NCBI GenBank assembly: GCA_963669155.1
Contig: OZ022597.1
Location: 9,003,250 to 9,067,249, forward strand
Length of the DNA stretch: 64,000 nucleotides
From: Arbacia lixula
Taxonomy: Eukaryota; Echinodermata; Echinoidea; Arbacioida; Arbaciidae
Direction of reading: 5' to 3'
Part shown: positions 15,354 to 52,200 of the stretch, piece by piece
Position numbering within the stretch: position 1 is the stretch's first letter
Layout of the letters: every line of letters begins with the position of its first letter
Program-made: the position numbers and the translations under genes
Notes under the pieces: generated by a model
Database searches by the model: none
What the model was told of the DNA's origin: nothing
The model's input: only the letters and a program-made list of their open reading frames with translations

Positions 15354-15479
15354 CTACTTCACATCAGCCGAAAGTGTAATTGCCGACAATTTGACATCAC
15401 TGCTCTCATAAGCAGCATTGAATCCTTCCTCAATATTCAGCAGTTCCATAACGCACTCGTGCAGGAAGATGTATTGTTT
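15354..15479 (-). CDS. Duplicate terminal RPTP exon (possible alternative last exon)
   Basis: Almost identical to the exon at 19070-19201, with the same TTCCACAG acceptor, [20 protein letters not shown], and the ending SADVK followed by TAG (two residues shorter). Changes cluster in the tail (AAYESSDV against VVHEGSDI), while the PTP helix is unchanged. The duplication includes flanking intron and 3-prime sequence. An AATAAA signal lies only about 8 nt behind the stop (TTTATT at 15341-15346 on the plus strand). No other PTP exon was seen between 15.5 and 19 kb, so this is an extra last exon rather than a second gene. It could be a mutually exclusive alternative exon or an unused duplicate. 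Confidence 0.7.
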   Translation of the reverse strand, partial: KQYIFLHECVMELLNIEEGFNAAYESSDVKLSAITLSADVK

Positions 15480-25200: not shown

Positions 25201-28200
25201 ATTGTATGTCTATATGCATCGAGACAAGGATGATATAATTGACACTTCTAGATATTTCATGATGATCGATCTGGTTTTTTTTAGTATTGTAAAAGCATAT
25301 TTGTTCAGCAATGCTTTTAAAGAAATCATGTAGTTAAGTTACCTCCCTCGGGCGTTGATAGTTCGGGTTCAACTGTTGTAGCTGTCAAATGAACAGACGA
25401 ATATTTTGTTACATGATCCTTTAGAGGCTTATGTCATATAATCAGAGCAGAAATGCACCCAGCAAGAAATCATTAAATGAGAAAATAAGGGAACTACAGC
25501 TTTAAGCTATTCATATTCATATTCATCATTCATTCATAGTATACATTTTTTTTTTAATAATTTGAAATGTAAGATTAAAGCAACATCTTTATATCGTTCC
25601 GGAAAGGGGAGAAAAAAAATATGGAAACATATCCCAAACAGAAGCTTAGTCAACTAATCTGAAACAAAATACATTGCCTTACTATATGACAACGGAAATG
25701 CCCCTGTTCTTAAAATGCCATTGTAACGTGACAGCACACTGTATCATGTAGTTTCAAATTAAACAACCATTAGACATAAATAATAATATTCAATTCTTAG
25801 AGACGCATTCAAATAGTCTCTATGCGTGTGAAAGTAAAAATTTATTATGTTAGAATTTAAAAATAACTAATGATTATCAACCAGATGCGTCTTTAGTGCT
25901 GATTTGAAATGATTGAAGTCTGTCAATGATCTAATGACTTGGGATAGGTTATTCCATAATTTGGGTGCCGACTTTGCAAAACTTCTATCCCCGAATGTCT
26001 TAGAATTTACACGAAATTTAGAGAGAAGATTTTTTTTATTGAGAAATAAGATTAACACTAGGCTGGTATCGTTTGATCAGTTCGGTAAGATAGACAGGAG
26101 CATTACCACCTAGGCATTTGAATACAAGAGTGAGGATTTTAAACTGAACACGAGCCCTTATCGGAAGCCAATGGAGACTACATAAGATCGGAGTTATGCT
26201 TTTAAATTTCACTTTTCGCGTCACAAGCCTTGCCGCTGAATTCTGTACACGTTGGAATTTACTTAGTTGAATCTTGGAGATTCCCAGAGACAGACCATTA
26301 TTGAAATCTATGTAACTAAACATAAATGCGTGAACGAGCCTCTCTGTGGTCGCTTTACCAAAAAAAAAGCCTTTCCTTCCCAATCCTATGTAGTCCAAAG
26401 GCAGCCGATTTACAAATATTATCAATGTGAGTGTTCATACTTAGATCATCTTGAACAATAACTCCAAGGTGCTTTTGAAACCGACAAAACGGAAATATCA
26501 GAGACCGTTATTGACAGCGATGGTTGTAATTTTACATGCACAACTTAAGTTTTTCCTAGATTTAACTTATGGCTGTTATTCAGTGACTACTCCTGTATGT
26601 CACACAAACAAGATTCAATTTGAGTTATTACTGTGGCACGACTAGTACATTTTGGTATAGAGACATGAATTTGGGTATCATCAGCATATATCATTTCACC
26701 GATGCTGCACTTCTCTATTACATTTTACAATGGAGCCGTGTACATCGAGAAACATAATGGCCTTATAACTAAACCACGAGGAACCCCCTCACTTAAAATA
26801 CATGGAGCAGATGCAGTGCCCTTGATTGACACACTTTGAGTGCAGTTGCTGAAATTTATATGAATAAAACCAGTTCAATGCAGTACTTGTAATCCCGCAT
26901 CTTAACGAAAATCGATTAAGCATGGTGTCATGGTCAATTTATTTTATTTTTTTATTTATTTTATTTCACGTTTTATTTAGACAGGGTAGTCCTTTCAGTC
27001 TCGAGGACTGCTTTCCAAAGGAGCCCTGTGATACAAATCACGTAAACATAACAAAATATGTAACATTCAAATACAATTAATACAAAGATCAAAGATAACA
27101 ATAACAAAGACTAACACAAAAACACATTTGAAGAAGGAAAAGAAAAAAAAAAGTCACACAAATGTGTAAGTGAGTGAGTGACCCCCCCCCCCCCCCCGGC
27201 ATAACGCAGTGCCCAGGTGTAGCTTATACGACGCACATCTGATTTAAATTTTGTGAGAGTATTACAACAGTGAACAGTGATTGGGAGGCTGTTAAAGAGT
27301 TTACTACCACAATAGCAGATTGATCTTTTCATGTATTCAGTTCTAGGTGTGGGAACAAATAACGGGCTGCGGGTTGCGTAACGGGTTGTATAGTTAACAT
27401 CTCTGCGTTGTATTAAGGTATTTAAGTAAGGGGGAGCTTGCCCATGGAGAATTTTGAATACAAGTACCGTTTGTTGATACCGGATTCTTTGCTTAACTGA
27501 CTGCCAATTTAAAGTGCTTAATAGAAAACTTGCCGAAGTGAATAAATCCATGCCAAGAACCATTCGAGCGTATTTGTTTTGCAATCGTTGGATACGTGAA
27601 ATATTTGTTTGGGCACAGCTTCCCCATACTGTACAAGAAAAATCAATGTGTGGTAGAACAAGAGAATAAAACAGATCTATCATTATTTCTTTTGTAAGGT
27701 AACACTTTACTCTACGTATGCAGCCAATTGCTTGTGATATCTTTTTTACAACATGATCAACATGACTAGTCCAATTAAGACTCCCGTCCAACACAACACC
27801 AAGATATTTAAATTCTTTGACATGTTCAAGGATATCATTTTTGTACATTATTGCCAATTTTTTACCTGTTAATTTACGGTTTGAACAAAACAGCATAGTT
27901 TTCGTCTTTTCCGAGTTTAAAAATAGGTCATTACATTGAAGCCATTTAGTGATGGTACCAAATTGTGACTGGAGTTTCAGTTGTACATCATTAATATTCT
28001 TATCTGTACAAAATATAGCTGTGTCATCTGCGTATAAAGATAATTTACATGATTCATCTAATATTAAATTAGATATGTCATTAATAAATATACTGAACAT
28101 GAGGGGTCCTAGAGTCGAACCTTGGGGAACACCAGATTTTACCTTTAAGTACTTGCTTAATGTTCCTTCTATTGAAACACAATGCAATCGATCAGTAATA

Positions 28201-31200
28201 TACGATTTAAACCATTCTAATTCAAAATTACGTATTCCATACATCGATAGTTTTTTTAAAAGACGAGTATGAGAAATTACATCGAATGCTTTTCGCAAGT
28301 CAAGAAAAATTGCACCTGTGATATTACCAGAATTCATATTACGCAGAATATATTCTGAAATATCAGTAACACATGTTTGAGTTGAATGCATCGGTCTAAA
28401 GCCTGATTGTATAGAAGATAACAAAGAATTTTCATCAAAGTATTTATAAAGTTGTGCATGAACAGCCCTTTCCAATATTTTTGCAGGTATGGGCAGTAAA
28501 GAGATTGGACGATAGTTGTTAATATCTAATTTATTTCCACCTTTGTAAAGTGGTATTATTTTTGCAATTTTAAAGTCAGTTGGGATCTCCGCAGTACGTA
28601 ATGATACATTATAAAGAAAACTTAATGGCCTTGCAATGTAATCAGCAGCAAGTTTCAATAGTTTTGGGTGTAATTTATCAATTCCAACAGCTTTATTACA
28701 GTTAATTGACTTCAGTTCTTTAAGTACAAATTCTATTGTTATATCATCAAAGGAGAAACTTTCAGTGTTTTCAACTATCGTTGAACAAATATCAGTGCAT
28801 GTATGATCGAGGTTTTTCATTGTATCTAAAATATTATTAAAATTCTTATTAAATGCATTAGCGACCTCTTGTCTGTCTGATACTAGATCATCATGAAATT
28901 TAAGTTGATATTGAGTTGAAGTTCTTTTCTTACTTGGGAGTAACGTGTTCATTACTTTCCACTTGTTTTTTATATCACGACCAGCCTCTGACAACTTATT
29001 ACGATAATATCTTTTCTGTAATACTTTATTGAAATTATTAACTTTATTTCGTCAGTTTTGGTATTGTTTCCAATCTTCAGGATCTTTTCTATCATCATAT
29101 CTCTTTTTCAAATAATCACGCTCTCTAGCAAGTTCCAAATATTCGTCAGTGATCCAGGGCACCTGTTTCATCTTTTTTCTAACTGTACAATATGGTGCAT
29201 GTTTATTACAAATAACCTCAAATGCCTGTTTAAATTCAGTCCAAATTTCGTTCACATTTGTCTTTTCATATACACTACTCCAATCATAATTTTTAAGATC
29301 ATGACAAAACTTTTCTACATCAAAATTACGAAACGATCTGAACTTGGATACTTTGGGATAACCTTTAGGCAAAGTTTCTTTCAATACAACATAAGTTAAC
29401 AGATGGTCACTAATAGACGCAGATTGTATACCTGACGTTAATGAACCAAATGAATTAGACACCAAAATCAGGTCAATAAGAGTTTGGCTATGTGGAGTAA
29501 CACGAGTAGGTTTCTTTATAATTTGAGATAGAGCAAACTCATTACATAAGCAACGAATCTTTTTGGAAAAATTACTCTCTTTTAACATATTAACATTAAA
29601 ATCACCCATAATAATAACACGGTCAGAATTAAGACATATTTTATCAAGTTGATCATTAAGACATTGAAAAAAGGACAAACCTACGTCTGGTTTCTTATAC
29701 AGGATACCTATAAAAATTGGTGTTCTGTTCTTTAATCGAACCTCTATCCACATAACTTCAAGAGAGTCAGACTCAAGATCTTTTCTTCTTATATATGCAA
29801 TACTTTCTTTAATATAACAACCGACTCCTCCCCTTTTCGAACTGTCATCTGATATTCGGTCTTTTCTTTCAAAATTATATCCATCAATATGAAAGGCATT
29901 GTCAGGACAATCTTTGTTCAGCCATGTTTCTGAAACAGAAAAAATATCATATGAGCTATTTTGCAAAAATAATTCTACTTCGTCTTTTTTATTGCGTAAA
30001 CTGCACACATTTAAATGAGATATTTTAAGACCACGTTCTTTCGGGAAAGAGTTGTTAACATGTATTTCATTAATATTATTTACAGGTGGGTTACGATCAT
30101 CTATAAGAGTCGCTATGTTTTCAATTGTACAACTATCACCGTCATGAAAAGGCATTTGTCGAAAAACACATAAAGCACAAATCCAATCACTGTCTGAATG
30201 AAATATCTCGGGAGAAATGTCGCCACAATTCGTGTGGGACCAAGTTTGACAAATAATGCAAAGCACTGCGTTTTGATTACATTTAACATATTCTTTACAA
30301 AATATACACGGAAATTTCAAAGACATAACCAGAATAAAACATTATTGTTCGCACCTTACTATTCTGATGACGGTTCTTAAAGTGTCAATAGTGTCAAATG
30401 CGGAGGAGTACGTAATCCAGCATAACCAGCACCGTCTCTTCCCCCCCCCCCCCCCCCCATTCTGCTGCCAGGAGTAAGTCATTATAAAAGCGGAACATAG
30501 CTGTCTCAACACTGGTTTTTCCTATAAGCTGATTGTGTTCTACCATATAAACCGTTCACCGTGCCATTACAAGCATTCGGTGGTAACTCATATTCCTTAT
30601 TTCCGAAATTAGATTTTATCCAAAACAATTTTTGGAAAAATATTTACCTCGCTTGCTAGTCCACTGGCCTTCAGTAGAAGTAGGTTGACTTGTGCCTAAG
30701 AAGGTAAACATTTCGCATTACTAATTTATCATTTTGGAGTAAACGGTAAAAGTCGATGAAGCCGTTTTTGTCTACGTAGAAGAATCACATTGCATTATAT
30801 CATATTAAGCTCACACAGTTATATATATATTTTAAATCGATTCAGCAAGGTCACATTTCAAATATTTTTAATGCGGTTTGAGTTTGAAAACGCGTCACAT
30901 CTAACGATCTAATGCATAGGTGAAAATACAATATATCTTTAAGAGAAAAAAAAGAGATTGCACACAGAATGTGTAAAAGCACTTTGCAAGTGCCATCACG
31001 AAATCAAAACTTTAAAATATCATACCCTTTTTCTCCTTTTAAGAATTCCCACAAGAACGTTCACTAATTTGTTTAGCTCGTGTTTCTGGTTTCAACTAAT
31101 GTATGTAACTTTTGGGTAAACCATTTTTTTATATTCGGACTGTCGGATATCACGCAAGCATTTCATCATTACAAGGTCACATGCAACAATTTTACTAATA

Positions 31201-34200
31201 GTAACACATGAAAATAATATGTGACTCTATTTATTTTGTTTCAATTATGTAATTATATTTGTAAAAAAAAATACATTATTACCGTAATCAGCAGTAGTCT
31301 CAATAGCTGTTGGAGCGAGGTCGGTGGTGTACGAATCAGTAGTTCCAGCGAGACGAGTTCTCAGGGTGGTTGTTTCTTTTTTGAAAGAAAGATATGCAAA
31401 TTGCTTAAAAGAATGAAGTGCATTATATGGACGGAGAAGGCCCAACACGTTTAAACACTGTATTACCAATCACGAATGTTGTGTTGTATTCAAGATACTT
31501 ATTTAAATGAAACATATCTCCATATGCTCACCATTTATTGGCAACATATTCGGTAAATGAAGGGAAGTTTTTTTTTTTTTTACAGAATTCCAATAGCAGT
31601 TAAGATTCAGGAAATTGAATACCGCTTTGACAATTAACAAAACAAGAGAATGATTCGTTCATGATTGATCATGATCACTTCCAAACTATGATAAAATAAA
31701 AAAAAAAAAAACATTTAAGATATGATTTTTACCTTGCTTGCTTGTCGATTGGCCTAAAATAGAAGTAGGTCGGGTTGTACCTAGCAAAAGTATATTTGTA
31801 AGAATGTATTTTCATATTTACGCATTGGAAAATCATGATTTTGCGGTAAACGGTGAAGAGTACGTCTTTTCCTGCCTTTATTTATTTGACAATCAATTTA
31901 TGAAGCAATGTTTGTTAAAAATTGATTCACAACGTAAATTAATCACATGAAGGACTGGGATAAGAGTCATTCAGTTGAAACCATCAAAGCAAAGCACATA
32001 AAACACACCAGAAAGTGTGAAACCATTCATTCATAGTATAGATTTTTTTGGATAATCTAAAATGTAAGTTTAAAGCCACATATTTACATCGTTCCGCTAA
32101 GGGGAGAAGAGAAGGATGGAAAAAATATCCCCAAAAGAAGCTGAACCAACTCGTCTGAAAGAAAGGACAAGGTCTTATTATTTGACAACGGAAATACCCC
32201 TATTCTTAAAACGCCAGTGGAAGATGACAACGCACACTGGTATCATGTGGTTTCAAATTAAACAACGATTAGACATTAAGCGTACCATTACAAGCATTCG
32301 GTGATAGCTGATATTTCTTATTTCTGAAATAAGAAGTTATTCAAAACAAGTTCTGACCGATATTCACCTTGCTTGTTAGTCGACTGGCCAACAGTAGAAG
32401 TAGTTTGAGTTGTGCCTAAGAAAGTAAAAAAAAATGAATCTATCTTCAAACACGCATTACCAATTCATCATTTTGGAGTAAACGGTAAAAGTCGATGAAG
32501 CCGTTTTTGTCTATGTAGAAGAATCTTATTGCATGAAATCATATTAAGCTAACACAGATATATATATTTGATAATCAATTCAACAAGGCGCTATTTGAAA
32601 TATTGTCACTGACGCGTGGGTTTGAAAACGCGTGTCTAATGATATATTTAATGCACAGGTGAAAATACTATATATCTTTTGAGAAAAACAAAACAAAACA
32701 AAAGATTGCGCACAGCACGTGTAAAAGTACTTTGCAAGTTTCATCACGCAATGCAAACTCTAAAATATCATACCTTTTTTCTACTTTGTTAAATTTCCAC
32801 AAGAACGTTCACTAGTTTGTTTAGCTCGTGCTTCTGGTTTCACCTGATGCATGAAACTTTCGGGTAAACCTTTTCTTTTTCTTTTTCGGATATCAGGCGA
32901 GCATTTGGTCATATACAATGGTTCTACCAATAGTACACATGAAAATAATATGTGACTGTTGTTATTATGTCTAAATCTAAGTTCCATTCATTAGATTTGT
33001 AAAGACAACATTACATTGATACCATAATCAGCAGTAGTCGTAGTAGCTGTTGGAGCGAGGTCGGTGATGTATGAATCAGTGGTTCTAGTGGGAAGAGTTC
33101 TCAGGGTGGTTGTTCCTTTTTTGAAAGAAAGATATGCAAATTGCTTAAAAGAATGAAATGCATTATATGGATGGAGAAGGCCCAACACGTTTGAACACTA
33201 TATTACCAATTACGAATGTTGTTTTGTATTCAAGATACGTATGTAAATGAAACATATGTTTCTATGCTAACCATTTATTGGCAACCAATTGTTATTCGGT
33301 AGAGGAAGTTTCTCTTACAGAATTCCAATAGCAGTTAAGATTCAACAGATTGGATAGCGCTTTGACAATTAACAAATTAAGAAAACGATTCGTTCATGAA
33401 TGATCCAAATTACTTCCAAACTATATCAAATCCCTTCCCCCCCCCCCCCCACAACAAAACACATTTAAGTTATGATATTTACCTTGCTTGCTTGTCGATT
33501 GGCCTAAAGTAGAAGTAGGTTGGGTTGTACCTAGTAAAAGTATATTTGTTAGAATGTATCTTCATATTTACGCATTGGCAAATCATGATTTCCGGGTAAG
33601 TCTTTTTGTGCCTTTATTTATTTGACAATCAATTCGTGACTAAATACTTGTTTAAATTCATTCACAGCGTAAATTATCACATGAAGGGCTTACATAACAG
33701 TCAATCTGTTAAAACCATCAAAGTTAAACACATAATACCACACCGGAAAGTGTAAAACCGTTCATTCAAAATATAGTTTTTTTGGATAATCTAAAATGTA
33801 ACTTTGAAGCAACATATTTATATCGCTCCGCTAAGAGGAGAAAAGAAGTAGGGAAGAATATCCCAAACAAAAGCTAAGACAACTCGTCTGAAACAAAGGA
33901 CATTGTCTCACTATTTGACAACGGAAATGCCCCTGTTCTTAAAACGTCATTGTAAGATGACAACACACACTGGTAGCATGTGGTTTCAAATCATTAAGCG
34001 TACCATTACAAGCATTTGGTAATAGCTGATATCCCTTTTTTTCCGAAATTAGATTTTTATTAAAACAATTTTTAGAGCATTATTTACCTTTATTGCTAGT
34101 CGACTGGCCAACAGAAGAAGTAGGTTGAGTTGTGCCTAAGAAAGTAAAAAAGATATCGCAATGTATCTTCGAACGCGCAATACCAATTCATCATTTTGGG

Positions 34201-37200
34201 GTAAACGGTAAAAGTCGATTAAGCCGTTTTTGTCTACGTGAGAGAATCACATTGCATGAAATCATATTAAGCTCACACAGCTATATATTTGATATCAATT
34301 CAACAAGGCACTTTTTCAAATATTTTCATTGAGGTGTGGGTTTGAAAACGTGTGTCTAATGATATATTTAATGTACAGGTAACAATAATAATCCTTACGA
34401 GAAAAAAACAAAACAAAAGTTTGCATCCAGTATGTGTAAGAAAAATTTCCAGGTACCATCACGAAATCAAAACTCTAAAATATCATACCCTTTTTCTAGT
34501 TTGGTGAATTTCGACAAGAATGTTCACTAATTTCTTTAGCTCGTGTTTCTGATCTCACCTAATGAATGTAACTTTCGGTTTAACCTTCTCTTTTATTCGG
34601 ATATCAGGCAAGCATTTGGTTATTACAAGGTCACATTCAACAATTTTACCAATAGTAACACATGACAAAATATGTGACCCTACTTATTATGTTTAAATCA
34701 TTGTGCCATTCGTTATATTTGTAAAGACAAAATTACATTCTTACCGTCATCAGCAGTAGTCTCAATAGCTGTTGAAGCGAGATCAGTGATGTACGAATCA
34801 GTGGTTGTAGTGAGAACAGTTCTCAGGGTGGGTATTCCTTTCCAAAAAAAAAGAAAAGAAAAAAAGAAATGCAAATTGCTTAAAAGAATGAAATGCTTCA
34901 TATACACTAAGAAGGACCAACCAGTTTGCACTCTGTATTACCAATCACGAATGCTGTTTTGTATTCACGATACGTATTCAAATCAAACATATCTTTATAT
35001 GATAACCATTTTTTGGCAACCATTTGTTATTCGGTAAATAAAAGGTTTTTTCTTACAGAAAAAAGTTTTTCTTACAGAATTTACAATAGCAGTTACGATT
35101 CAGCAAATTGGATAGCGATTTGATAATTAAAAAAAAAGGAAATTCATTCGTTCATGAATGATCATAATCACTTTCAAACTATACTAAGTAAGAAAAAAAA
35201 CACATTTAACTTTTTATGATCTTTACCTTGCTTGCTTGTCGATTGGCCTAAAGTAGAGGTAGGTCGGGTTGTACCTAGCAAAAGTATATTTGTTAGAATG
35301 TATTTTGTAATGATGTTGTAATGATCATGTATTGTCTATTTTAGAAGCCTGCTGAAAGTTACTTGCCCTCAAATGATCTACATTTGGAGTAATGAGTGAT
35401 TAAATCACAAATCCTGAAAATGTTCGGGCCGAACATTTTGAGGATTTAATCATTAATCATTAATTACTCCATATGTGGATCATTTGAGGGCAAATGACAT
35501 TCAGCAAGCTTCTAAAATAGACAATACATGAATTTAAGATCATTGGCGAGAAGATTGCTAACAATTACACTTTTAAGGCTTTTTTGCCTTCCCAGTACAG
35601 TATACGCCCTTTAAACGGTGAATGTGGATTTCAGCACTAGAGGTTAGAAAAGTGTTACAGAGGTTTGATTGATAATAGGAAAGTTCAAGAGAGAAGTGTA
35701 CTACTGTAAGCATGTCATTCTGATAACTCGGCACATTGATTGATGTACGTGTAATAAGCCAGATGATTTTTTTTTATCTAGATGTATCAGAAAAGGTATG
35801 GGAAAATGACATGTTGATGTCAAAATAACCATGTACGAGTGGTCCTTTTTGTGAGACAGTTGTATCTGCACGTCATAGGTTTTAAGGTATTCACTGGAAT
35901 ACTCTTACGAGTATTTGGTGTTGTTGTTTATATCTTGTTATGCAGATCGAACGACTCTGACTTCGACTATCACTTCTTGGCAGTCTTGAGACTACTTGAG
36001 ACTTTTGGGGACTACTTGCAGCCGTGACAGCTGTCATTCAATAAAGTCAGTCAGTCTGGTAACCGTGACCCCAAATTGTGTCATTTTTTGGTTGGTGAAG
36101 AAAGCTGTTGCTGGATATCTCAAAGGTGTCATGTGGTTTCAAATTAAACAACTATAGGACGTCAAGCATCCTGTCACAAGCATTTAGTCATAACTGATAT
36201 GTTTTTGTTCCCGAAATTACATTTTATCCAAAACAATTTTGGAGCAATATTTACCTTGCTTGCTGGTCAACTGACCAACAGTAGAAGTAGGCTGAGTTGT
36301 GCCTAAGAAAGTAAAAAAAAATGGAATGTATCTTCGAACACGCATCACCAATTCATCATTCTGGAGTAAACGAAGCCGTTAACGAAGCCGTTTTTGTCTA
36401 TGTAGAAGAATCACATTGCATGAAATCATATTAAGCACACACAGCTATATATTTAATAATCGATTCAGCAAAGGTGCTATTTCTAATACTTTCATTAAGG
36501 TGTGGGTTTGAAAACGTGTGCCTAATGGTGTATTTAATGCACAGGTGAAAAAAATATATATTGTAACGGTATTCCACTCCAGCCACCATGTGTACGGCAA
36601 TTCCACTTTCTGACACCATGTGTAACTGGAATTTCTCTTCCTTTTTGCTGACGGTGGGTGTTAATAAATGTTAGATGTGGGGGAAATTATCCCAATGGGG
36701 CGTGATGTGTGTGGAATATCTTTATCAGAATAGGCCGAGTGTAATCGTGGTTCGTTTGGTTGAAATATACAACCTGGTATAACACAATCATTCATTCATT
36801 TTCAGTTTCCATCCTCACGCAACTTACCAAATGAATAACAAGGTGCTGAACAATCGTTAAAAATTGTTAATTCTTTGTCTTCCTTCAATGTCCAGACGCT
36901 TCAACCAATCCGAACGTCCATCTCCATCACTGGTTATTACTACAACGTAATTTACACTCACCAAGCTGAACCTTCCGACGACACCTAGCTACGTACACGT
37001 TCTGTTGTAACATGAACTACACTAAGCTGCCCGAGCCAAACACACAGAGCTCTACACGTATATGTAGCTTTTTGATTTACCACACACACACACTGATTCA
37101 TTGATTCCTGCCCGTGTCATCGCTCAGAATTACACAAAGACAAAAGTTACTAATTAATCAAAAACATTACGTTTTCGTCTATAACTCACGTATTTCTCCA

Positions 37201-40200
37201 CGGATTGCCCTAAAATTTTGCTATGCGTTAATTGGAACAGAAAAAAATAATAAAAAAATTACTAGAGTGGCACTATCTTGCTTCAACAAAATTCTAACGC
37301 CACCTAAAACCCTCGCGACCTATTTTTACTTCATACATACATCGATCATACAAAAATGGGATCGATCGATCAATAGATCGATCACACAACAAAATCCAAT
37401 TTTGTTACAAAATCTTTAAGCCAAAAAAAAAAGATTGCACAGAGCGTGTGTAAAAGCATCACGAAATCCAAACTCTAAAATATCATACCTTTTTTCTACT
37501 TTGATGAATCCACTGGGGGGAAGTTGAATTACGCATGAATTGCGAATAAAAAAATCGGTCATTCGTTGTCATCCGCATTAAATTTGGCAAAAAAAATAAA
37601 AATCCGCTTTAAAATTGCGGATACATAAAAGATGTACAGCGAACAAATTACGATTAAAAGCGGAAATATCACGAATAAAAACGAATTACCTTGCGAATGC
37701 TATTTTACGAGGGATATTGCTTGTAAAATTGTGGAATGTATTGCAGACATTGCGAAAATGTAACGAAAGTAATGCGGAAGTATAACACATGTATTGCGGA
37801 CAAAAATAGGATGCTAAACGATTATTGCAGAAGTATTACGTATGCATAGAGAATGCAATGCGCACGTGGTGCGGAAACAACGGTCGCATTGCGAATGTGA
37901 TACATTTGAATCGAGACCATATAAAAGAAGAGCACTCCACTCTTCAGCGAAGATGAACAGAAAAGAATATTTTTTTCAAACTTTTTTTTTTCATTCCATG
38001 GAAAGTTGATGAATGTTTTTTTAAGACCACATGAATGAATGGGCTAGTTCAGAAATAGAACCATTTTACCTTATCTTTTATTGAGTATCAATGAAAAAAA
38101 AAGACAATGAATGTTTGTTTATATGTTTTATGTCTTATTTATCTGCCTTACTTAAAATACACTTGTTCATTTGATGTTTTACATACAATATTACACTTTT
38201 ATATATGTTTATGCTTTTTCAAAATGTTGATCTTGAACAAAATAAAAAAAGGTATTGAGATTTAATACTTATTTTTGTTTTATCAGTTTATGTGTTTTCC
38301 GATCATGAAAATTTATTTTTCACTTTTAATTACTTGTTAATATATAAAACGATATAAAATACTATACTACAAAAATTTTTTTTTATTAAATTATATTCAA
38401 AATGTAGCTTCAAATCGAATAGCAATTCTCAAAAGAATATGAGGATATTGATGAGGTTTAAGAGGGGATACAAACATAAATCGAGCCTTTGGCTCAATTT
38501 ACCTCTTCCACATGAAACAATCATGTATGGTTAACATGAAAGGAGTATGCATGTGTATTGAAGTGTATGGGCATATTCCATAAGTGTCCGTGTGTGCATG
38601 TTTGTATGTGTGTGTGCGTGTGTGTGTGTGTGTGTGTCCGTCTGTCAACAAATACCTGAAAATAATTCCAACCTCTTGTAAAATCTTGTTGAGGTGATAA
38701 GCTATGATTATCATAGCTCTGCACTATCTGGAATTAGGTACGTCCATGGTATAAGTGTCATATTCTATCTGGCGACACACACGGGGGGGGGGGGGGATGT
38801 TGGGTTATACTTTTATTAACAAAAATACAATTAAAGTGGCAGGGGCAATATGGCAATGACATCCGGCATTTTTATGTTGTTGGATGGCTACAACTATCAA
38901 ATGTCCGTGATGATCCATGGCAACATCCTATATTGTACACAACTGCTCTTAAAATGACGGTCAAATTTCATTTTCTGTTACATTTATATAGTAATCTGGG
39001 TTTACGACGAATGTTTGCTGTGTACTCGCAAATTGTTCGCGAAACAGTCGTCATACAAACGCTCTATTCGTAACCAGTCTGTAAGCATTCTTTATAAATT
39101 ATTATACCTTGGTATAAAGTCGTATTAGGCACGCTATGCATTCGTTTCGCATTCTATCCCAGTCCGCTACTTATCCGTAATCCCATGTCCGTTGCGGATA
39201 TCACAGGATAACTGCGAAAATTCAGCGCATACATTGAGTATGCATTGCGTATGCATTGCGCATATAAACCGGATGATTTCCGCTCCCAGGAGTTTTGGGC
39301 AGCCCAAAACTCCTGGGAACGGAAAAATGTGCCGTTGCGGATGATTACGAACATGTGCGGAAAATAACCGTCTTAAAACAGCATACTTTACGAATATTGC
39401 GGATGTTTAGCGTCTGTAATCAAATTTTATCCGCAATTTATGCGCAATCCATCCTAAATGTCACTGGGACCGGGCCTTTAGCTCGTGTTTCTGGTTTCAC
39501 CTAATGCATATAACTTTTGGGTAAACCTTTTCTTTTATTCGGATATCAGGCACGCATTTGGTTATTACAAGGTCACATACAACAATTTTACCAATAGTAA
39601 CTCATGACAAAAATATGTGACTCTACTTATTATGTTTAAATAATTGTTCTATTCGTTATATTTGTAAAGACAAAATGACCTTCTTACCGTAATCAACAGT
39701 AGTCTCAATAGCTGTTGGAGCGAGGTCAGTAATGTACGAATCAGTGGTTCTAATGAGAAGAGTTGTCAGGGTGGGTATTCCTTTTTTTTAAAAGTAGAAT
39801 AAAAATGCAAATTGCTTAAAAGAATGAAATGCATTATATGGATGGAGAAGGCCCAACAGGCTTGAACACTCTATTACCAGTTACGATTTTTTTGTATACA
39901 AGATACGTATTTAAATGAAACATATGTTTATAAGCTAACCATTTATCATGTTTATTGGCAACCATTTGTTAATCGGAAAATAAAGAAAGTCTCTCTTACA
40001 GAATTCCAATAGCAGTTAGGATTCAGCAAATTGGATAGCGCTTTGACAATTAACAAAACATGAAAATGATTCGTTCATGAATGATCCAAATTACATCCAA
40101 ACTATATCAAATCCCCCCCCCCCCACAAAAAAAACACATTTAAGATATGATCTTTACCTTGCTTGCTTGTCGATTGGCCTAAAGTAGAAGTAGGTTGGGT

Positions 40201-43200
40201 TGTACCTAGCAAAAGTATATTTGTTAGAATGTATCTTCATATTTACGCATTGGCAAATCATGATTTCCGGGCAAGTCTTTTTGTGCCTTTATTTATTTGA
40301 CAATCAATTCGTGACGAAATACTTGTTTAAATTCATTCACAACGTAAATTAATCACATGAAGGGCTTACATAATAGTCAATCAGTTGAAACCATCAAAGT
40401 TAAACACATAAAACCACACAGGAAAGTGTAAAACCGTTCATTCAAAGTATAGCTTTTTTTGGATAAATTAAGATGTAAGTTTGAAGCAACATATTTACAT
40501 CGCTCCGCTAAGAGGAGAAAAGAAGTAGGGAAGAATATCCCAAACAGAAGCTAAGACAACTCGTCTGAAACAAAGGACATTGTCTTACTATTTGACAACG
40601 GAAATGCCCCTGTTCTTAAAACGTAAAGATGACAACACACACTGGTAGCATGTGGTTTCAAATCAGTAAGCGTACCATTACAAGCATTCGGTGATAGCTG
40701 ATATCCCTTTTTTCCGAAATTAGATTTTCATTCAAAACACTTTTTAGAGCATTATTTACCTTTATTGCTAGTCGACTGGCCAACAGTAGAAGTAGGTTGA
40801 GTTGTGCCTAAGAAAGTAAAAAAGATATCGCGATGTATCTTCGAACGCGCATTACCAATTCATCATTTTGGGGTAAACGGTAAAAGTCGATTAAGCCGTT
40901 TTTGTCTACGTGAAAGAATCACATTGCATGAAATCATATTAAGCTCACACAGCTATATATTTGATATCAATTCAACAAGGCGCTTTTTCAAATATTTTCA
41001 TTGAGTTGTGGGTTTGAAAACGTGTGTCTAATTATATATTTTATGTACAGGTACCAATACCAATCTTTACGAAAAAAAAAACCCCAAAAGATTGCCTTCA
41101 GTATGTGTAAGAACAATTTTCAGGTACTATCACCAAATCAAAACTCTTAAATATCATACCCTTTTTCTACTTCGGTCAATTTCGGCAATAATGTTCACTA
41201 ATTTCTTTAGCTCGTGTTTCTGATCTCACCTAATGAATGTAACTTTCGGGTAACCCTTTTGTTTTATTCGAATATCAGGCAAGCGTTTGGTCATGGCAAG
41301 GTCACCTACAACAATTTTACCAATAGTAACACATGACAAAAACGTGTGACTCTACTTATTATGTTTAAATCATTGTTCCATTCGTTATATTTGAAAAGAC
41401 AAAATTACATTCTTACCGTAATCAGCAGTAGTCTCAATAGCTGTTGAAGCGAGATCAGTGATGTACGAATCAGTGGTTGAAGTGAGAAGAGTTCTCATTG
41501 TGGGTATTCCTTTAAAAAAGAAAAAAGAAAAGAAAAAAGAAATGCAAATTGCTTAAAAGAATGAAATGCTTTAAATAGACAAAGAAGGCCCAACCAGTTT
41601 GAACACTGTATTACCAATCATGAATGCTGTTTTGTATTCACGATACGTATTCAAATCAAACATATATTTAAATGATAACCATTTACTGGCAACCATTTAT
41701 TGGCAACCATTTGTTATTCGGTAAATAAAAGGAAATTTCTCTCACAGAATTTCCAATAGCAGTTACGATTCAACAAATTGGAAAGCACCTTGATAATTAA
41801 GAAAACAAGAAATTCATTCGTTTATGATTGTTCATGATCACTTCCAAACCATAATAAAAGAAGAAGACATTTAAGAAATGATATTTACCTTGCTTGCTTG
41901 TCGATTGGCCTAAAGTAGCAGTAGGTCGGGTTGTACCTAGCAAAAGTATATTTGTTAGAATGTATTTTCCTACTTACGCCTTGGAAAATCATGATTTTCA
42001 GGTAAACGGTGAAGAGTAAGTCTTTTCCTGCCTTTATTTATTTGACAATCAATTTATAAAGTAATGTTTGCTAAAAATTGATTCACAACGTAAATCAATC
42101 ACATGGAGGGCTGAGATAACAATCACTCAGTTGAAACCATCAAAGCAAAACACATAAAACCACACGAGAATGTGTGAAACCATTCTTTCATAGTATAGAT
42201 TTTCTTGGGATAATCTGAAATGTAAATTTGAAGCAAAATATTTACATCGTTCCGCTAAGAGGAGAAAAGAAGTATGGAAAAATATCCTAAACAGAAGCTC
42301 AACCAACTCGTTTGGAACAAAGGACATTGTCCTACTATTTGCCACTTAAAAAGCCCCTGTTCTTGAAACGCCATTGTAAGATGTCAACAAACACTGGTGT
42401 TGTTAGAAATAGGTTGTTTGAGCCTTTGACGTAATTTACGTCATATTCGAGGGCTAGGGACAGGTTTGGGTTACATCTATAGAGAGGGCAGTCTAATTCA
42501 TGTGCCATGATTCATCGTCGTCAATTTGTTTTCCAGCCAAATCAAGAAAATTCTGAATGAGCCCTAAGTTGTACACATTTTTGCAGCTCAAATTGAACAT
42601 ATACCATGTCATCTACACTTACATGAGGAAAAAAAATATTTGTTGTCTGCTTTGGAGGAAATATTAAGCATTTATTACGTGATGGTGTGAGCAAACAATT
42701 ATGTACGCCGTACATATACGATACGTGCATGGTAGTGTATTAGTGAATGTGAAAATGATGAACGCTGTAGATAAGTACAGTGACCTACGGATTTAATGAA
42801 CACAAATGAATCTGGTAGAGAAGATAGAGACATTAAGTGGAATATATGACTCAGAATATAATCATTCTGAGGAATTACAAAAGTTGTAATGATCCAGGCA
42901 GGTGGGATTTTCTGGATATTTCGTTTTCTGGGTCATGTTAAACGGTGAATGTGGGTTTCAGCACTAGAAGTTAGAAAAGTGTTACAGAGGTTTGATTGCT
43001 AATAGGAAAGTTCAAAAGAGAAATGTACTACTGTAAGCATGTCCTTCTGATAACTCGGCACATTGATTGATGTCCGTGTAATAAGCCAGATGATTTTTTT
43101 ATCTAGATGTATCAGAAAAGATATGGGAAAATGACATGTTGATGTCAAAATAACCATGTACGAGTGATCCTTTTTGTTAGACAGTTTAATCTGCACGTCA

Positions 43201-46200
43201 TAGGTTTTAAGGTATTTACTGGAATACTCTTACGAGTATTTGGTGTTGTTCTTTATATCTTGTTATGCAGATCGAACGACTCTGACTTCGACTTCGACTA
43301 TTACTTCTTGGCAGTCTTGAGACTACTTGAGACTTTTGGGGACTACTTGCAGCCGTTGTACCTAGCAAAAGTATATTTGTTAGAATGTATTTTCCTACTA
43401 TACGCCTTGGAAAATCATGATTTTCAGGTAAACGGTGAAGAGTAAGTCTTTTCCTGCCTTTATTTATTTGACAATCAATTTATAAAGTAATGTTTGCTAA
43501 AAATTGATTCACAACGTAAATCAATCACATGGAGGGCTGAGATAACAATCACTCAGTTGAAACCATCAAAGCAAAACACATAAAACCACACGAGAATGTG
43601 TGAAACCATTCTTTCATAGTATAGATTTTCTTGGGATAATCTGAAATGTAAATTTGAAGCAAAATATTTACATCGTTCCGCTAAGAGGAGAAAAGAAGTA
43701 TGGAAAAATATCCTAAACAGAAGCTCAACCAACTCGTTTGGAACAAAGGACATTGTCCTACTATTTGCCACTTAAAAAGCCCCTGTTCTTGAAACGCCAT
43801 TGTAAGATGTCAACAAACACTGGTGTTGTTAGAAATAGGTTGTTTGAGCCTTTGACGTAATTTACGTCATATTCGAGGGCTAGGGACAGGTTTGGGTTAC
43901 ATCTATAGAGAGGGCAGTCTAATTCATGTGCCATGATTCATCGTCGTCAATTTGTTTTCCAGCCAAATCAAGAAAATTCTGAATGAGCCCTAAGTTGTAC
44001 ACATTTTTGCAGCTCAAATTGAACATATACCATGTCATCTACACTTACATGAGGAAAAAAAATATTTGTTGTCTGCTTTGGAGGAAATATTAAGCATTTA
44101 TTACGTGATGGTGTGAGCAAACAATTATGTACGCCGTACATATACGATACGTGCATGGTAGTGTATTAGTGAATGTGAAAATGATGAACGCTGTAGATAA
44201 GTACAGTGACCTACGGATTTAATGAACACAAATGAATCTGGTAGAGTAGATAGGGACATTAAGTGGAATATATGACTCAGAATATAATCATTCTGAGGAA
44301 TTACAAAAGTTGTAATGATCCAGGCAGGTGGGATTTTCTGGATATTTCGTTTTCTGGGTCATGTTAAACGGTGAATGTGGGTTTCAGCACTAGAAGTTAG
44401 AAAAGTGTTACAGAGGTTTGATTGCTAATAGGAAAGTTCAAAAGAGAAGTGTACTACTGTAAGCATGTCCTTCTGATAACTCGGCACATTGATTGATGTC
44501 CGTGTAATAAGCCAGATGATTTTTTTATCTAGATGTATCAGAAAAGATATGGGAAAATGACATGTTGATGTCAAAATAACCATGTACGAGTGGTCCTTTT
44601 TGTTAGACAGTTTAATCTGCACGTCATAGGTTTTCAGGTATTTACTGGAATACTCTTACGAGTATTTGGTGTTGTTGTTTATATCTTGTTATGCAGATCG
44701 AACGACTCTGACTTCGACTTCGACTATTACTTCTTGGCAGTCTTGAGACTACTTGAGACTTTTGGGGACTACTTGCAGCCGTGACAGCTGTCATTCAATA
44801 AAGTCAGTCAGTCTGGTAACCGTGACCCCAACTGGTGTCATTTTGTGGTTGGTGAAGCATCCTGTAACAAGCATTTAGTCATAACTAATATTTTTTTTAT
44901 TCCCGAAATTAGATTTTATCCAAAACAATTTTGGAGCAATATTTACCTTGCTTGCTAGTCAACTGACCAACAGTAGAAGTAGGCTGAGTTGTGCCTAAGA
45001 AAGTAAAAAAATGGAATGTATCTTCGAACACGCATCATCAATTCATCATTCTGGAGTAAACGAAGCCGTTAATGAAGCCGTTTTTGTCTACGTAGAAGAA
45101 TCACATTGCATGAAATCATATAAAGCTAGCACAGCTATATATTTCATAATCGATTCAGCAAGGTGCTATTTCAAATATATTCATTGAGGTGTGGGTTTGA
45201 AAAGGTGTGTCTAACGATATATTTAATGCACAGGTGAGGAACTATTTATCTTTAAGAGAAAATAAACCAAAAAAATAAATTGCACAGAGCATGTGTAAAA
45301 GCACTTTGCAAGTGCCATCACGAAACCCAAACTCTAAAATATCATAACTCTTTTGTACTTTGATGAATTTCCTCAAGAACATTCACTAATCTGTTTACCT
45401 CGTGTTTCTGGTTTCACGTAATGTATGTAACTTTCGGGTAAACCTTTTCCTTCATTCGGATATCAGGCAATCATTTGGTCATTACAAGGTAACATACAAC
45501 AATTTTACCAATAGTAACACATGAAAATAATATGTGACTCTATTATGTTTGAATCATTGTTCAATTCATTGTATTTATAAAGACAAAATTACATTCTTAC
45601 CGTAATCAGCAGAAGTCTCAATAGCTGTTGGAGCAAGGTCGGTGATGTACGAATCAGTGGTTCCAGCGAGACGAGTTCTCAGGGTGGTTGTTCCTTTTTT
45701 GAAAAAAAGAAATGCAAATTGCTTAAAAGAATGAAGTGCATTACATGGACGGAGAAGGCCCAACCAGGTTGAATACTGTATTACCACTTTCGAATACTGT
45801 GTTGTATTCAAAATACATATTTTATTTCAAACATATCTTCATATGCCAACGATTTATTGGCAACCATTTTTATTCGGTAAGTAACACGAAGTTTTTCTCA
45901 TAGAATTTCATAGCAGTTAAGATTCAACAAATTGGTTGCGCTTTAACAATTAACCAAACAAAAAATCATGCGTTCATGAACCGTCTTAATCACTTCCAAA
46001 CTATACTAAATCCAAACACATTTAAGATATGATCTTTACCTTGCTTGCTTGTTGATTGGGTTACAGTAGAAGTAGGTTGGGTTGTACCTAACAAAAGTAT
46101 ATTTGTTAGAATGCATCTTTATGATTACGCATTAGATAATCATGATCTGCGGTTGAACGGTGGTGAATAATTCTGTTCCTGTTTTTGCTTATTTGCGATC

Positions 46201-49200
46201 CATGAAGTGATAGTTGTTTAAATTGATTCACAACGTAAATTAATCACATGATTGGCTTACATAAACAGTAGAAACACACAAAACCACAAGAAAGGAAAAT
46301 GTGATTCCAATCATTCATAGTATAGGTTTTTGGATAATCTGAAATGTAAGAACAAACCAATATCTTTACAACGTTCCGCAAAGGGGAGAAAAGAAAAATG
46401 GAAATATATCCCATACAGAATCTACATGTAAATAAACTGAAACAAAGGACATTGCCTTGCTATTTGACAACGGACATGCTCCTGTTCGTAAAATGAAAAT
46501 GTAACGTGACAAACACAGGTATCATCTACTTCCAAAGTAAAGAGCTATTTGACATTATGCTTATAATTACAAGCATTTAGTAATAACTAATGTTTATTTT
46601 TTCCGAAATTACATTTAATGCACCAAAAAAAAAAAAAATTTTAGAGCTATATTTACCTTGCTTGATAGTCGACTGGCCAACAGTAGAAGTAGGTTGAGTT
46701 GTGCCTAAGAAAGTGGTCATTTTGGAATGTATCTTCAAACACACGACAAATATTCCTCATTTTAGAGTAAGTGCTAGTTTGATGAAGCTGTTTTTTGTCT
46801 ACCTAAAAGAATCACAATGCATGAGACCAGATTAAGCTCACACAGCTGTAAATTTGATAATCGATTAAGCGAGGCGCTATTTCAAATATTTTCATGGCGG
46901 TGTTGGTGTGAAAGAATTGTGTCTAATGATATCGTTAATGCACTGGTGAATATCCTTTAAAAATAATAACTTAAAAAAGTGTACACAGCATATTGGAAAG
47001 GACCTCGCAATTAACATCGTGAAATCAAAACTTTAATTAAATCATGTCTTTTTTTTCTACTTTGATGAATTTTCTCAAGAGCATTCACTAATTTGTTTCA
47101 ATTGTGTTCTTGGTTTCATCTAAAGTAATATACCTTTTGGGTGAACCTTTTCCTTTATCCGAATATTAGGCAAGCATTTGATCACTGCAGAGTCACATGC
47201 AATAGTTTTACCAATACGAACAATTGAGAAAAAATTGTGACCCTACATATTATGTTTACATCATTGTTCCATTCATTAAATTGGTAAAGATATAATTACA
47301 TTCATACCGTAATCAGGAGTCATTTTATGAACTGTTGTAGCGAGGTCGGTGATGTAATAATCAGTGGTTCCAGTTAGAAGAGTTCTCGGGCTGCGTGTTC
47401 CTTTTTTGAAAGAAAGAGGTGCGAAATTGCTTTAAAAAATAAAGTGCATTTCATGGAGTAACAATGCCGAACAAGTTTAAGCATTGTGTTACGAATGACA
47501 AATTTGAGATTTAACATACTACAAAAATCATTATTTCATGAATGATCTTAATCACTTCCAAACTATGCTTAATCCAAAGAACATTTCAGATATGATCATT
47601 ACCTTGCTTGCTTGTCGATTTGCCTACAGTAGAAACAGGTCGGGATGTACCTAACAAAAGTAAATTTGTTAGAATGAATATTCCTAATTGCGCACTGGAT
47701 ACTCAAGATTTGCGCGTAATCGGTGTTGAACAAGCCTTTTCTTGCCTTTATCTTTTTGACAATCAATTCATGTAGCGATAGTTGTTTAAAATGATTAACA
47801 ACGAATATAAATCACGTGTAGTGCTTAGAAAACAGTGACTCAGTTGAAACCCTCAAAGCAAAACATACAAAACCACAGCAAAAATGTGAATCAATTCATT
47901 CATAGTATATATATATTTTTTTTATAATCTACAAATGTAAGATTAAAAAGATATCTTTACAACGTTCCGCAAAAGGGAAAAAGGAAAGGTGGAAAGATAT
48001 CCCATACAGAATCTAAATCAACTAAATCTGACACAAAGGACATTGCCTTTACTGTATTTGACAACGGACATGCTCCTGTTTGTAAAATGCCATTGTAACA
48101 TGACAACACACTGGTATCATCTGGTTCCAAAGTAAAGAGCTATTTGACATTATGCTTATAATGACAAGCCTTTGGTAGTAACTAATGTTCATTATTTCCG
48201 AAATTACATTTTATAAAAAAAAAACACACATTTTTGAGCTATATTTACCTTGCTTGCTAGTCGACTGCCTAATAGTAATAGTAGGTTGAGTTGTGTCTAA
48301 GAAGGCAAACATTTTGGAATGTATCTTCAAGCACACATCAACCATTCATCATTTTCGAGTAAAATGTTTTTGATATAGCCGTGTTTGTCTTCGATTAAAG
48401 AACAAGAAATCAGATTAAGCTTGCACAAATATTATATTTTGACAATCAAGTCAGCAAGGTGCCTTTTGATAAATTTTTACTAAGGTGTGCATATGGAAAC
48501 ATGTGTGTAATGATTTATTGAATGCACAAGTAATGATGATATATATCACTTTGAGAAAATGAAATACGCAGCACATCCGAAAGAAGTTCGCAAGTGACAT
48601 AACAAAATCTTACTTTAAAACTCATATTTTTTTTCTATTTTGATGAATTCTTGCAAAAACATTTGATGATTTTGATTCTCTCGTTTTTCTGGTTTTATTA
48701 TAAGCAATGGAACTTTCGGATGAACTTTTCCTTTTATCCGGATATCATGCAAGCAAATGCTCGTGAGTAACATACAATATTTTTACCAATAGGAACAAAT
48801 AAACATAACATGCCACATTAATTATGTGTAAAGTTATAACCCATTCATTATATTCGTAAAAACAAAATTACATTCTTACCATAATCAGCAGTAATCTCAA
48901 TAATTGTTGCAGCGAGGTCGGTGGTGTAAGAATCAGTTGTTCCAGTAAGAAAAGTTCTCAAGTTGGGTGTCCCATCTTTCAAAGAAATATAAACTGCTTA
49001 CAGCCGAACAAGTATAAGCATTGTATTGCCAATTTCGAATACTCTTTTGTATTCAAGATACGTATTTGAATCACACATATCTTAAAGGGCATATACTGTA
49101 CTGGGAAGGCAAAAAAGCCTTCAAAATGTAATTGTTAGCAATCTTCTTGCCAATGGTCTTAAATTCACGTATTGTCCATTTTAGAAGCTTGCTGAAAGTT

Positions 49201-52200
49201 ATTTGCCCTCAAATGATCCACATACGGAGTAATTAATGATTAATGATTAAATCCTCAAAATGTTCGAGCCCAACATTTTGAGGATTTGTGATTTAATCAC
49301 TCATTACTCCAAGTGTAGATCATTTGAGGGCAAATAACTTTCACCAGGCTTTTAAAATAGACAATATATGAATTTAAGACCATTGGCAAGAAGATTGCTA
49401 ACGATTACATTTTGAAGGCTTTTCTGCCTTCCCAGTACAGTATATGCCCTTTAATGTGCCTATCATTTATTGTCAACATTTTCTTTATTCTTACAGAATT
49501 CATTAGCAGTTATGATTTAGCAAAATGGATAGCGCTTTGACATTTAACCTATCACAAAAATCATTCGTTTGTGAGTAATATTCATGACTTCCAAACTATA
49601 CTTAGTTAAAACAAAACATATGATCTTTACCTCGCTTGCCTGTCGATTGGCCTACAGTAGAAGTAGGTCGGGTTGTACCTAACAAAAGTACATTTGTTAG
49701 AATGTATCTTCATAATGACGGATTGAATACCAGGTATTCATGATTTGCTAGTAAACGGTGTCGAACAATCTATTCCTGTGTTAGATTTAACCAACATCTT
49801 TACAACGTTCCGCAAAGGCGGGGATAAAAATGAAAATATATCCCATACAGAAGCTAAATCAAGGAAATCTGAAACAAACAACATTGCCTTAATATTTGAC
49901 CACGGAAATGCCCCTGCTTTTAATAGGCAATTGTAACGTGACAACACTCTGGTATCATGTGGTTTCAAAGTAAACAGCTATTTGACATTAGGCGTACCAT
50001 TACAAGCATTCGATGATAACTGATATTCTGTATTTCCGGTATAACATTTCATAAATAAAAACATTTAAGAGATATTTACCATGCTTGATTGTCGACTGGC
50101 CAACAAAAGTAGGTTGAGTTGTGCCTAAAAAAATAGACCTTAACATCTTAGAATATTCAAACACACATGAACTATTTATAATTTTCAAGTAAATGGTGAA
50201 ATCTGATGAAGCCGTTTTTGTCTTGAGAGAAGAATCACATTGCATGAAATCACATTAAGCTCTCTCAGCTATAAAGTTGATCATTGTTTCAGCAAGGCGC
50301 TATTTGAAATATTTTCATTGAGTTGTGTGTGTGGGAGTGTGTGTGAAAACATGTGTCTAATGATATGCATGCACAGGTGAGAATAATATATATCCTTTTG
50401 GGAAAATGAATTAAAGACAACACTGCACACAGCATTTCTGAAAGTACCTCACAAGTGAAATAATGAAATCAAGACTTAAAAAATATCATACCATTTTTCT
50501 ACTTTGATGAATTTTCGCAAGAACAATCAATAATTTGTTTCTTTGGTGTTTCTAGTTTAATGATAAGCAATGTAAACATTGCAATGACTACCTCCACCTA
50601 CCTACAAGAGCATCACATATGTTCATACAATGCCATCTAACAACCTTTCATGTGGGAATAATCGATTCTTATGTCAGAAATGTGCTAGCTATGCCAAGGG
50701 GAAAAAAATGCATTGAATAAACACGTGCTGGTATCATAAGCACTTACAGGTAGTCATTGCAATGTTTAGTAGTTTGTGCATGAATTCTGTATATTATCTT
50801 GCTAATTTCTACCTTTGATGATGGCACAAGGGGAATAATGAGTTGGAGGATATTCTAGAGGCGGGGCACCATCCAAAAAGAGTGATGAGGCCCTAGATTG
50901 GTTCACTTGACTTTATGTATTACTATGTTACTGTCATTCTTAATCGGCTCTAAATTACTAAAACATGAAAATAAAATGACGCGAAGGCTTCATGTTTAGG
51001 AGAAGACTTCCCTCCCCCCCCCCCCCCTCCTTCCCCTCCCTTCCGCATATCACCCCTAGAGCGGTTAATTGGGACCCTTCACAATCCGGTACAGATTGGC
51101 GCAATATACCCAGTCCAATGTTGCATGGCCACGGGACACGAAATGGAGATTTAAGGTATTTGGCATTGATAATAATGGAACATACTTTTGACACTTTTGA
51201 CTCGGTTCCATACTCGGGTCTTGTTCATGATTTTTCAAATGATTACAAATGTGTTTTTAACAGAGCAATATCAAGAATAACATTATAATAACAAGAGAGA
51301 TGTACCGTTCAAACTTAAGCGGCAGAACATTTTGTTAATAGTTTACATGTGCTAATTTTAATGTGACACACACATTGAATAGGCATGCAATTATCTTGAT
51401 CAACTCATTTTAAGTTCTTTCCTGTTTCGTTTCTTAGGACTGATTAACTTAAACAGTAATTTTCCATTCACTATGTTATCTACACAGCTCTATTTTATTA
51501 CCTTTTAAACGGACGCACCACCTGTACACAAACAGCGGACCCGTTTATCCACCAATCAAGTTTACTTCATGCTTTACTTTGCATTTAAGGGTTTCTTAGT
51601 GGGGTTTCAAAGCCTTAATGGCATTCACTGAAAAATATGTATGCCATATTTCCTTTGTCATCTTCTCACTGTGTAAAAACTTTACACAAATGTGTTCTTC
51701 TGTATACTACTAACCTGTTACTTGTAATTCCGACGAACTAAGCCGAGCGGAGAATATCTGAAATATTCAAGAAGTTGTTACTTCTCATTTAAAAGCAATA
51801 TATTAAAGATACATCTGACTGCAAGTGTTATTTTGTCACATATTTTGTTATCTTTTCTTCTCGTCTGTTGATTATTACTGACAAATAATGAATTTGGAGA
51901 ATATGTTGTTTCCAAATGTCCAGCTTAGATGTAGTAAAATGATCAGTGTGACGATATATTAGTCAACCATATTTTGCATTGACCATATCTAAATGAACTT
52001 TAATTTGCCATTCCTGCGCCGAAAAACTTTTAGATTACTCCACCCCCCCCCCTCCCCCCAATATCACCTTCTGTTTAACCCTTATAGCCTTTACAAAAGA
52101 ACAATTGTATTCACAGGATCGACATAACTAGAGTACCCTTAGTATATCGTGCAACAAAAACACCTTAAAAAACTCATAACAAGAAATACAGAAAGATCAT

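Follow-up and report, generated by a model that had tools for sequence, protein, structure and literature searches.

A phase-symmetric array of 25 stalk exons in a receptor-type tyrosine phosphatase gene of the sea urchin Arbacia lixula

Introduction

A 64,000-nucleotide (nt) stretch of the genome of the sea urchin Arbacia lixula (assembly GCA_963669155.1, contig OZ022597.1, positions 9,003,250 to 9,067,249; hereafter the window, with positions counted from its first letter) carries a tandem array of 25 short exons, in a locus that is best explained as one intact gene for a receptor-type protein tyrosine phosphatase (RPTP). The explanation that is considered probable as a whole is that an RPTP resembling the R3 receptors has lost an ectodomain of FN3 domains and received in its place a mucin-like stalk, disordered and rich in threonine, which is encoded by an array grown by unequal exchange and which acts as a spacer. 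The exons of the array are open and share their frame with those for a signal peptide, a transmembrane segment and a single protein tyrosine phosphatase (PTP) domain, and their copies have stayed free of stops and frame-breaking changes.

Results

The array of stalk exons

From border to border of its stalk exons, the array spans exactly window positions 30648-50124 on the minus strand, where A, B and C exons follow one another in this order eight times before a final A, giving 1560 nt or 520 codons. In nhmmer searches with single exons (one A, one B, one C), the 48-nt type turned up 17 times (9 A and 8 B) and the 93-nt type 8 times; every copy lies on the minus strand, within 30.6-50.1 kb, and no match is weaker than E = 3.3e-6. 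Together with the reading of the borders, these copies bear out the position and the composition of eight cassettes plus one extra 48-nt exon that had been given in the initial annotation. Because queries A and B recover each other, the cassette itself contains an older internal exon duplication.

The proposed cassette of 48 + 48 + 93 nt holds in 23 of the 25 exons and fails in the 5′-most A (A1, 45 nt) and the 5′-most C (C1, 96 nt), all lengths being multiples of three. AG/GT borders, an open reading and phase 1-1 were found in 25/25 exons and the frame runs uninterrupted from start to stop codon, confirming what had been read earlier of open exons with usable splice sites; as was also proposed, any subset of the exons keeps the frame. 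A fixed 93-nt search gave no in-phase acceptor for C1, whose reading as a broken exon was rejected since a 96-nt exon with the acceptor AAAG fits. Array introns range from 202 to 3385 nt, with repeat insertions among them.

The gene model

Splicing of the 25 array exons with 12 others yields a model of 37 coding exons in one frame and 942 residues (Table 1). Pfam Y_phosphatase matches the model once, at residues 675-911 (E = 1.6e-79), and the two other Pfam matches on it are weak and both under the cut-off. There is one cytoplasmic PTP domain, in the translation of which QTE is present, and we take this and the other PTP sequence motifs to be catalytic motifs. Within the window, a PTP-domain search of the genome (best 117 of 248 candidates) found the exons of the model and a duplicated last exon, and no others. 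The two last exons (15289-15528 vs. 19000-19249, minus strand) are 88.8% alike and each has an acceptor and a stop codon, a pair from which alternative C-termini would be possible.

The ectodomain before the transmembrane segment comprises 559 residues without a single cysteine or N-glycosylation sequon, and serine and threonine account for 220 of the 532 residues past the first 27 (41%). In the array-encoded stalk they amount to 216 of 520 residues (160 Thr, 56 Ser), alongside 27 Pro, and the stalk is in frame with the signal peptide, the transmembrane exon and the PTP domain, so that the earlier reading of a Ser/Thr-rich RPTP stalk stands. In the last stalk exon, X, a ninth B exon may survive as a remnant. 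At window 25527-25780 (minus strand), 146 nt above exon X, lies a fragment 82% like the A-B intron of the array.

Table 1. Exons of the Arbacia lixula phosphatase gene, in order of transcription (positions in the window)
Feature	Position	Strand	Length and phase	Observations
Coding exon 1 (start codon, signal peptide)	52653..52688	-		donor gtaagt; in frame with later exons
Coding exon 2, signal peptide end and mature N-terminus	51715..51757	-	ends in phase 1	cag/gt borders
A1	50080..50124	-	45 nt, 1-1	
B1	49631..49678	-	48 nt, 1-1	
C1	48880..48975	-	96 nt, 1-1	
A2	48249..48296	-	48 nt	
B2	47603..47650	-	48 nt	
C2	47308..47400	-	93 nt	
A3	46657..46704	-	48 nt	
B3	46040..46087	-	48 nt	
C3	45601..45693	-	93 nt	
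A4	44947..44994	-	48 nt	
B4	41889..41936	-	48 nt	
C4	41417..41509	-	93 nt	
A5	40760..40807	-	48 nt	
B5	40158..40205	-	48 nt	identical to B7
C5	39688..39780	-	93 nt	
A6	36255..36302	-	48 nt	
B6	35227..35274	-	48 nt	
C6	34745..34837	-	93 nt	
A7	34088..34135	-	48 nt	
B7	33483..33530	-	48 nt	
C7	33023..33115	-	93 nt	
A8	32368..32415	-	48 nt	
B8	31733..31780	-	48 nt	
C8	31283..31375	-	93 nt	
A9	30648..30695	-	48 nt	extra exon at 3′ end
X, last stalk exon	25343..25381	-	39 nt, 1-1	in frame
Transmembrane exon	24518..24629	-		20-residue hydropathy peak 3.5; in frame
J1, juxtamembrane	23637..23732	-		in frame
J2, juxtamembrane	23260..23341	-		in frame
P1, PTP domain (KNRFTNILP)	22983..23073	-		Pfam and PDB-chain scores
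P2, PTP domain	22475..22686	-		Pfam and PDB-chain scores
P3, PTP domain	21533..21667	-		weak donor (5/9 consensus bases)
P4, PTP domain (WPDHGVPD)	20402..20556	-		
P5, PTP domain	19832..19967	-		
P6, last coding exon with stop codon	19070..19201	-		in frame
P6b, duplicated last exon	15354..15479	-		own stop codon

Conservation among the exon copies

Because all cassettes are copies, their common phase was inherited and cannot be counted as 25 separate events. What goes beyond chance is the intactness of the copies, as seen in the tests for frame-breaking indels and for stops. Distinct frame-breaking indels number 0 in 192 exon columns vs. 44 in 900 flank columns (Fisher P = 0.00034), and distinct indels of any kind number 2 (both frame-keeping) vs. 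61, the C1 insertion being included even where the alignment places it at an edge. When each exon is given its observed number of changes, sampled from the spectrum of the flanks, 4.03 exons with a stop are expected and 0/25 are found (P = 0.0095). Both tests treat copies that share ancestry as independent, which makes these P values too small. Two stops that arise when base changes are taken singly were discarded, since whole-codon reading gives 0/25 exons with a stop.

The composition of the stalk departs from expectation in the same simulation, with Ser + Thr at 216 vs. 204.9 (standard deviation 5.0, P = 0.0145; C1's extra codon is left out of the count), and distinct changes that gain Ser/Thr exceed expectation (10 vs. 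4.8, P = 0.014), while the synonymous share of distinct changes does not depart from it (P = 0.46). The shared ancestry of the copies makes these P values, too, smaller than they should be. Mean pairwise difference among exon copies is 0.129 for A, 0.085 for B and 0.164 for C, whereas the 150 nt upstream/downstream differ by 0.205/0.257, 0.281/0.240 and 0.230/0.190, respectively. The comparison of dN/dS with flanking divergence that the initial annotation had put forward gives a dN/dS of about 1, and each of the three classes diverges less in its exons than in its flanks. Pooled over the copies, the proportions of synonymous (pS) and nonsynonymous (pN) differences are 0.127 and 0.143, and in the B exons alone, which hold few changes, pN exceeds pS (0.109 vs. 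0.041). These results suggest that the frame of the stalk and, more weakly, its Ser/Thr content have been kept, and that its sequence matters less than frame and composition.

Growth of the array

The 45 longest self-matches of the array show 72.8-99.5% identity, and a 2.5-kb block covering units 4-5 is 89.3% identical to units 6-7. In trees of the exons, the pairs A4-A6, A5-A7, B5-B7 and C4-C6 have support of at least 0.985; B4 groups with B8, and the upstream flank of B6 is foreign. Unequal exchange is expected to leave the edge copies of an array more diverged, and the most diverged copies do include C1, C2, B1 and B2 from the 5′ edge, with A9, at the 3′ edge, likewise diverged. The array is best explained as having grown through unequal exchange, both of single A-B-C cassettes and of a block of two.

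The most similar pair of all is a tandem duplication of 1.43 kb in the A4-B4 intron (41930-43356 and 43355-44782, 99.5%), which adds no exon because its end falls inside B4, of which it holds just 7 nt and thus no whole exon. This duplication is either very recent or an assembly duplicate.

Catalytic class and neighbouring paralogs

Among single-domain PDB chains, phmmer scored PTP10D highest (291.8 bits), followed by CRYP-2 (273), PTPRB (272.5) and PTPRO (268.4), then PTPRQ, PTPRJ and PTPRH, whereas the first domain of LAR alone reached 229.0 bits, below the R3 chains. Two-domain receptors total more by matching twice, CD45 reaching 307.9 bits over its two domains. The scores support a PTP domain closest to those of the R3 receptors, not to that of CD45. 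The Pfam scan of the 942-residue model is without fn3.

The genome searched comprised 606,990,701 bases in 590 contigs, the window lying on contig C22, and the PTP-domain search gave at least 104 matches (best 117 of 248 candidates). Among the matches listed, the nearest PTP gene lies at C22:8973-8975k, less than 50 kb away, and is 67, 68 and 74% identical in three exons; the next nearest are at C22:8796-8802k, where the stretch above the transmembrane segment reads N, and then at C22:8771-8775k. Several related phosphatase genes are thus seen on the chromosome of the window, at C22:8771-9026k. In the 20 kb above the PTP exons of the nearest paralog, seven FN3-like open pieces were selected by eye, and in 7/7 of them no Pfam family scores better than fn3. 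Five of the seven start at a pyrimidine-rich phase-1 acceptor, as does the paralog's transmembrane exon, AGs in other phases also occurring in these pieces. Searched against the window, the paralog pieces gave one match (E = 0.26), on the opposite strand at a LINE-like element, and no FN3 in the ectodomain. An exchanged ectodomain is suggested because the nearest paralog found has FN3-like pieces in the place of the stalk. This arrangement would fit a swap in which stalk exons replaced FN3 exons at a phase-1 boundary common to both; the direction of the swap is one that we infer.

Uniqueness of the array

With the 2.27-kb array unit as query, the genome returned at least 48 matches (best 40 of 443 candidates). 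Within these, all 12 matches above 100 bits fall in this gene, the fragment above exon X included. On the remaining contigs no match exceeds 90.6 bits, and those found there involve query positions 682-938 alone, an intronic stretch that looks like a dispersed repeat. The 63-residue stalk consensus, searched with E up to 10, found 20/20 of its matches in the array (8 C and 12 others). No second stalk array was found by the DNA search (best 40 of 443 candidates) or the protein search of the genome.

A literature search, which left most subscription journals outside, turned up no paper about this gene and none about tandem arrays of stalk exons in RPTPs of invertebrates. Surveys of sea urchin phosphatases exist as well, outside the searched literature. 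The accessible text of a starfish coelomocyte proteome study lists an F-like RPTP, a different type, among its surface candidates. Within the searched literature, the exon number, the R3-like chassis without FN3 and the invertebrate host appear to be new.

Other elements in the window

The intron after the array contains, at 27111-30326 (minus strand), a long interspersed nuclear element (LINE)-like element with an endonuclease open reading frame (ORF) of 424 residues and a reverse transcriptase ORF of 627 residues, both open. A second retroelement, at 6401-7871 (plus strand), has a reverse transcriptase ORF (RVT_1), behind which a second ORF overlaps it in a different frame. Upstream of the phosphatase and on the same strand, FUT8 (alpha-1,6-fucosyltransferase; Pfam FUT8_N_cat) was recognized at 63457-63948 (minus strand), and the ORF at 59731-60045 looks by eye like the C-terminal part of FUT8, with no Pfam family matched.

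Discussion

Comparison with known systems

CD45 has two tandem PTP domains. The sea urchin gene is like CD45 in being an RPTP whose mucin-like N-terminal part is made of in-frame Ser/Thr-rich exons, but it differs in having one PTP domain, no FN3 found, no ectodomain cysteine and 25 array exons. As far as the accessible text of a review goes, the mucin-like segment of CD45 can be spliced out in some isoforms, and a cysteine-rich domain and three FN3 domains follow it. The comparison with CD45 made in the initial annotation is hence useful for how the stalk might work but not for kinship, given the single PTP domain, the best scores to R3 and the lack of any FN3 found. Its further remark, that no RPTP was known with so many stalk exons of one kind, is to be qualified by the thirteen alternatively spliced exons reported, in the available part of the source, for catfish CD45; on that report catfish CD45 is a precedent, and large numbers of in-frame stalk exons have a parallel among RPTPs.

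The R3 receptors (PTPRB, PTPRJ, PTPRO, PTPRQ and Drosophila PTP10D) resemble the sea urchin protein in their single catalytic domain and include its best single-domain scores, and the FN3-like pieces of its nearest paralog found are a further likeness. They differ in their FN3 domains, which were not found in the sea urchin ectodomain. CD44, with its variable exons, and titin, with its PEVK region, are tandem-exon repeat genes grown by unequal exchange. Both share with the sea urchin array short, phase-symmetric repeated exons encoding disordered or length-setting protein, whereas the sea urchin array is attached to a tyrosine phosphatase. For the human R3 members, the accessible part of the source gives 9 to 17 FN3 domains.

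Proposed role of the stalk

In the proposed mechanism, the folded ectodomain of FN3 domains appears to have given way to the disordered, mucin-like and threonine-rich stalk that the 25-exon array encodes. Because every array exon has phase 1-1 and a length that is a multiple of three, a change in copy number or the skipping of exons would alter the length of the stalk alone. The stalk would most likely be a spacer: as a rod densely covered with O-glycans, within an ectodomain of at most 559 residues, it would set the distance of the phosphatase from close cell contacts, as is thought for the CD45 ectodomain. Mucin-like chains extend by about 0.2 nm per residue, at which value the 520 residues would span about 100 nm and a 63-residue cassette about 13 nm. 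Translation, phosphatase activity, O-glycosylation, localisation, exon skipping and size exclusion are what we infer from the gene as it reads.

Several observations weigh against this explanation or parts of it. Inclusion or skipping of array exons was judged from genomic sequence alone, and the analysis covers one species, Arbacia lixula. The R3 assignment is based on scores, and 3 of the 7 FN3-like pieces, picked by eye in genomic sequence of the paralog, are over the Pfam cut-off. The pairs C5-C7 and B4-B6, which a block duplication predicts, are absent from the trees. The stalk-consensus search missed 5 of the 25 known exons, so that diverged single 48-nt exons elsewhere could escape it. 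Purifying selection on the amino-acid identity of the stalk was not seen across the exon copies (pooled dN/dS 1.13, bootstrap 95% 0.65-2.15), and distinct changes that lose Ser/Thr are not below expectation (17 vs. 20.2, P = 0.23). Finally, even at synonymous sites the exons (0.127) differ less than the flanks do (0.19-0.28), so amino-acid constraint cannot by itself account for the lower divergence of the exons; the low synonymous difference may be due to conversion or splicing constraint.

Alternative explanations

How the array is used can be read in several ways. All exons may always be included in a long constitutive stalk, whose length changes by unequal exchange between alleles or species, as in mucin repeats. 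This is close to an even proposition, being consistent with the range of identities among the array blocks, up to the 99.5% of the 1.43-kb duplication, and with the mosaic pairing of exons in the trees, but exon skipping is compatible with everything observed as well.

Skipping is possible on the genomic sequence, and cells such as coelomocytes may include different subsets of exons and so make receptors of many lengths, as CD45 does with fewer exons, a reading that is plausible though somewhat short of an even chance. Each of the 25 array exons, like exon X, has phase 1-1 and a length divisible by three, the A and B exons are short, and the thirteen alternatively spliced exons of catfish CD45 offer a parallel as far as the accessible report shows. 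All donors of the 37-exon model are GT, and G at +5 is found in 0/17 A/B donors, 6/8 C donors and 6/11 other donors of the gene. However, phase symmetry and a shared donor follow from the copying of one symmetric cassette, and U1 consensus matches overlap, array exons and the rest alike having 5-8 of 9. The lack of +5 G in A and B, which are copies, is therefore weak evidence for skipping at most.

That the duplicated exons are a decaying by-product of little use, skipped or tolerated, would agree with a dN/dS near 1 but is very unlikely in view of 25 exons without a stop or a frame-breaking indel, with every splice border intact and with mean divergence under that of the flanks in all classes. 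According to the accessible text of the Arbacia lixula genome paper, the assembly is unphased and HiFi-based, and two methods put heterozygosity at 3.47 and 4.40%. A copy number that is partly an artefact of assembly deserves the least credence, for although the 1.43-kb copies are closer to each other than this heterozygosity in an unphased assembly, the assembly is HiFi-based, most cassettes (exon plus 150-nt flanks) differ beyond allelic distance, the A5-A7 pair at 0.029 being an exception, and the doubtful copy holds no whole exon.

Implications

The R3-like receptor with an exchanged, mucin-like stalk admits a bolder extension, which is offered tentatively and considered unlikely, namely that the receptor is length-programmable, the choice of exons cell by cell and the copy number in the population together setting its height and its exclusion from contacts, as a CD45-like device of independent origin in an invertebrate. 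Size-based exclusion of phosphatases is a main model of signalling at immune contacts. A gene whose stalk length resides in 25 interchangeable exons, and which has a related gene on its chromosome with FN3-like pieces instead, provides a natural test of length under selection. If the explanation given here is true, the CD45-like form arose more than once, and on a different phosphatase.

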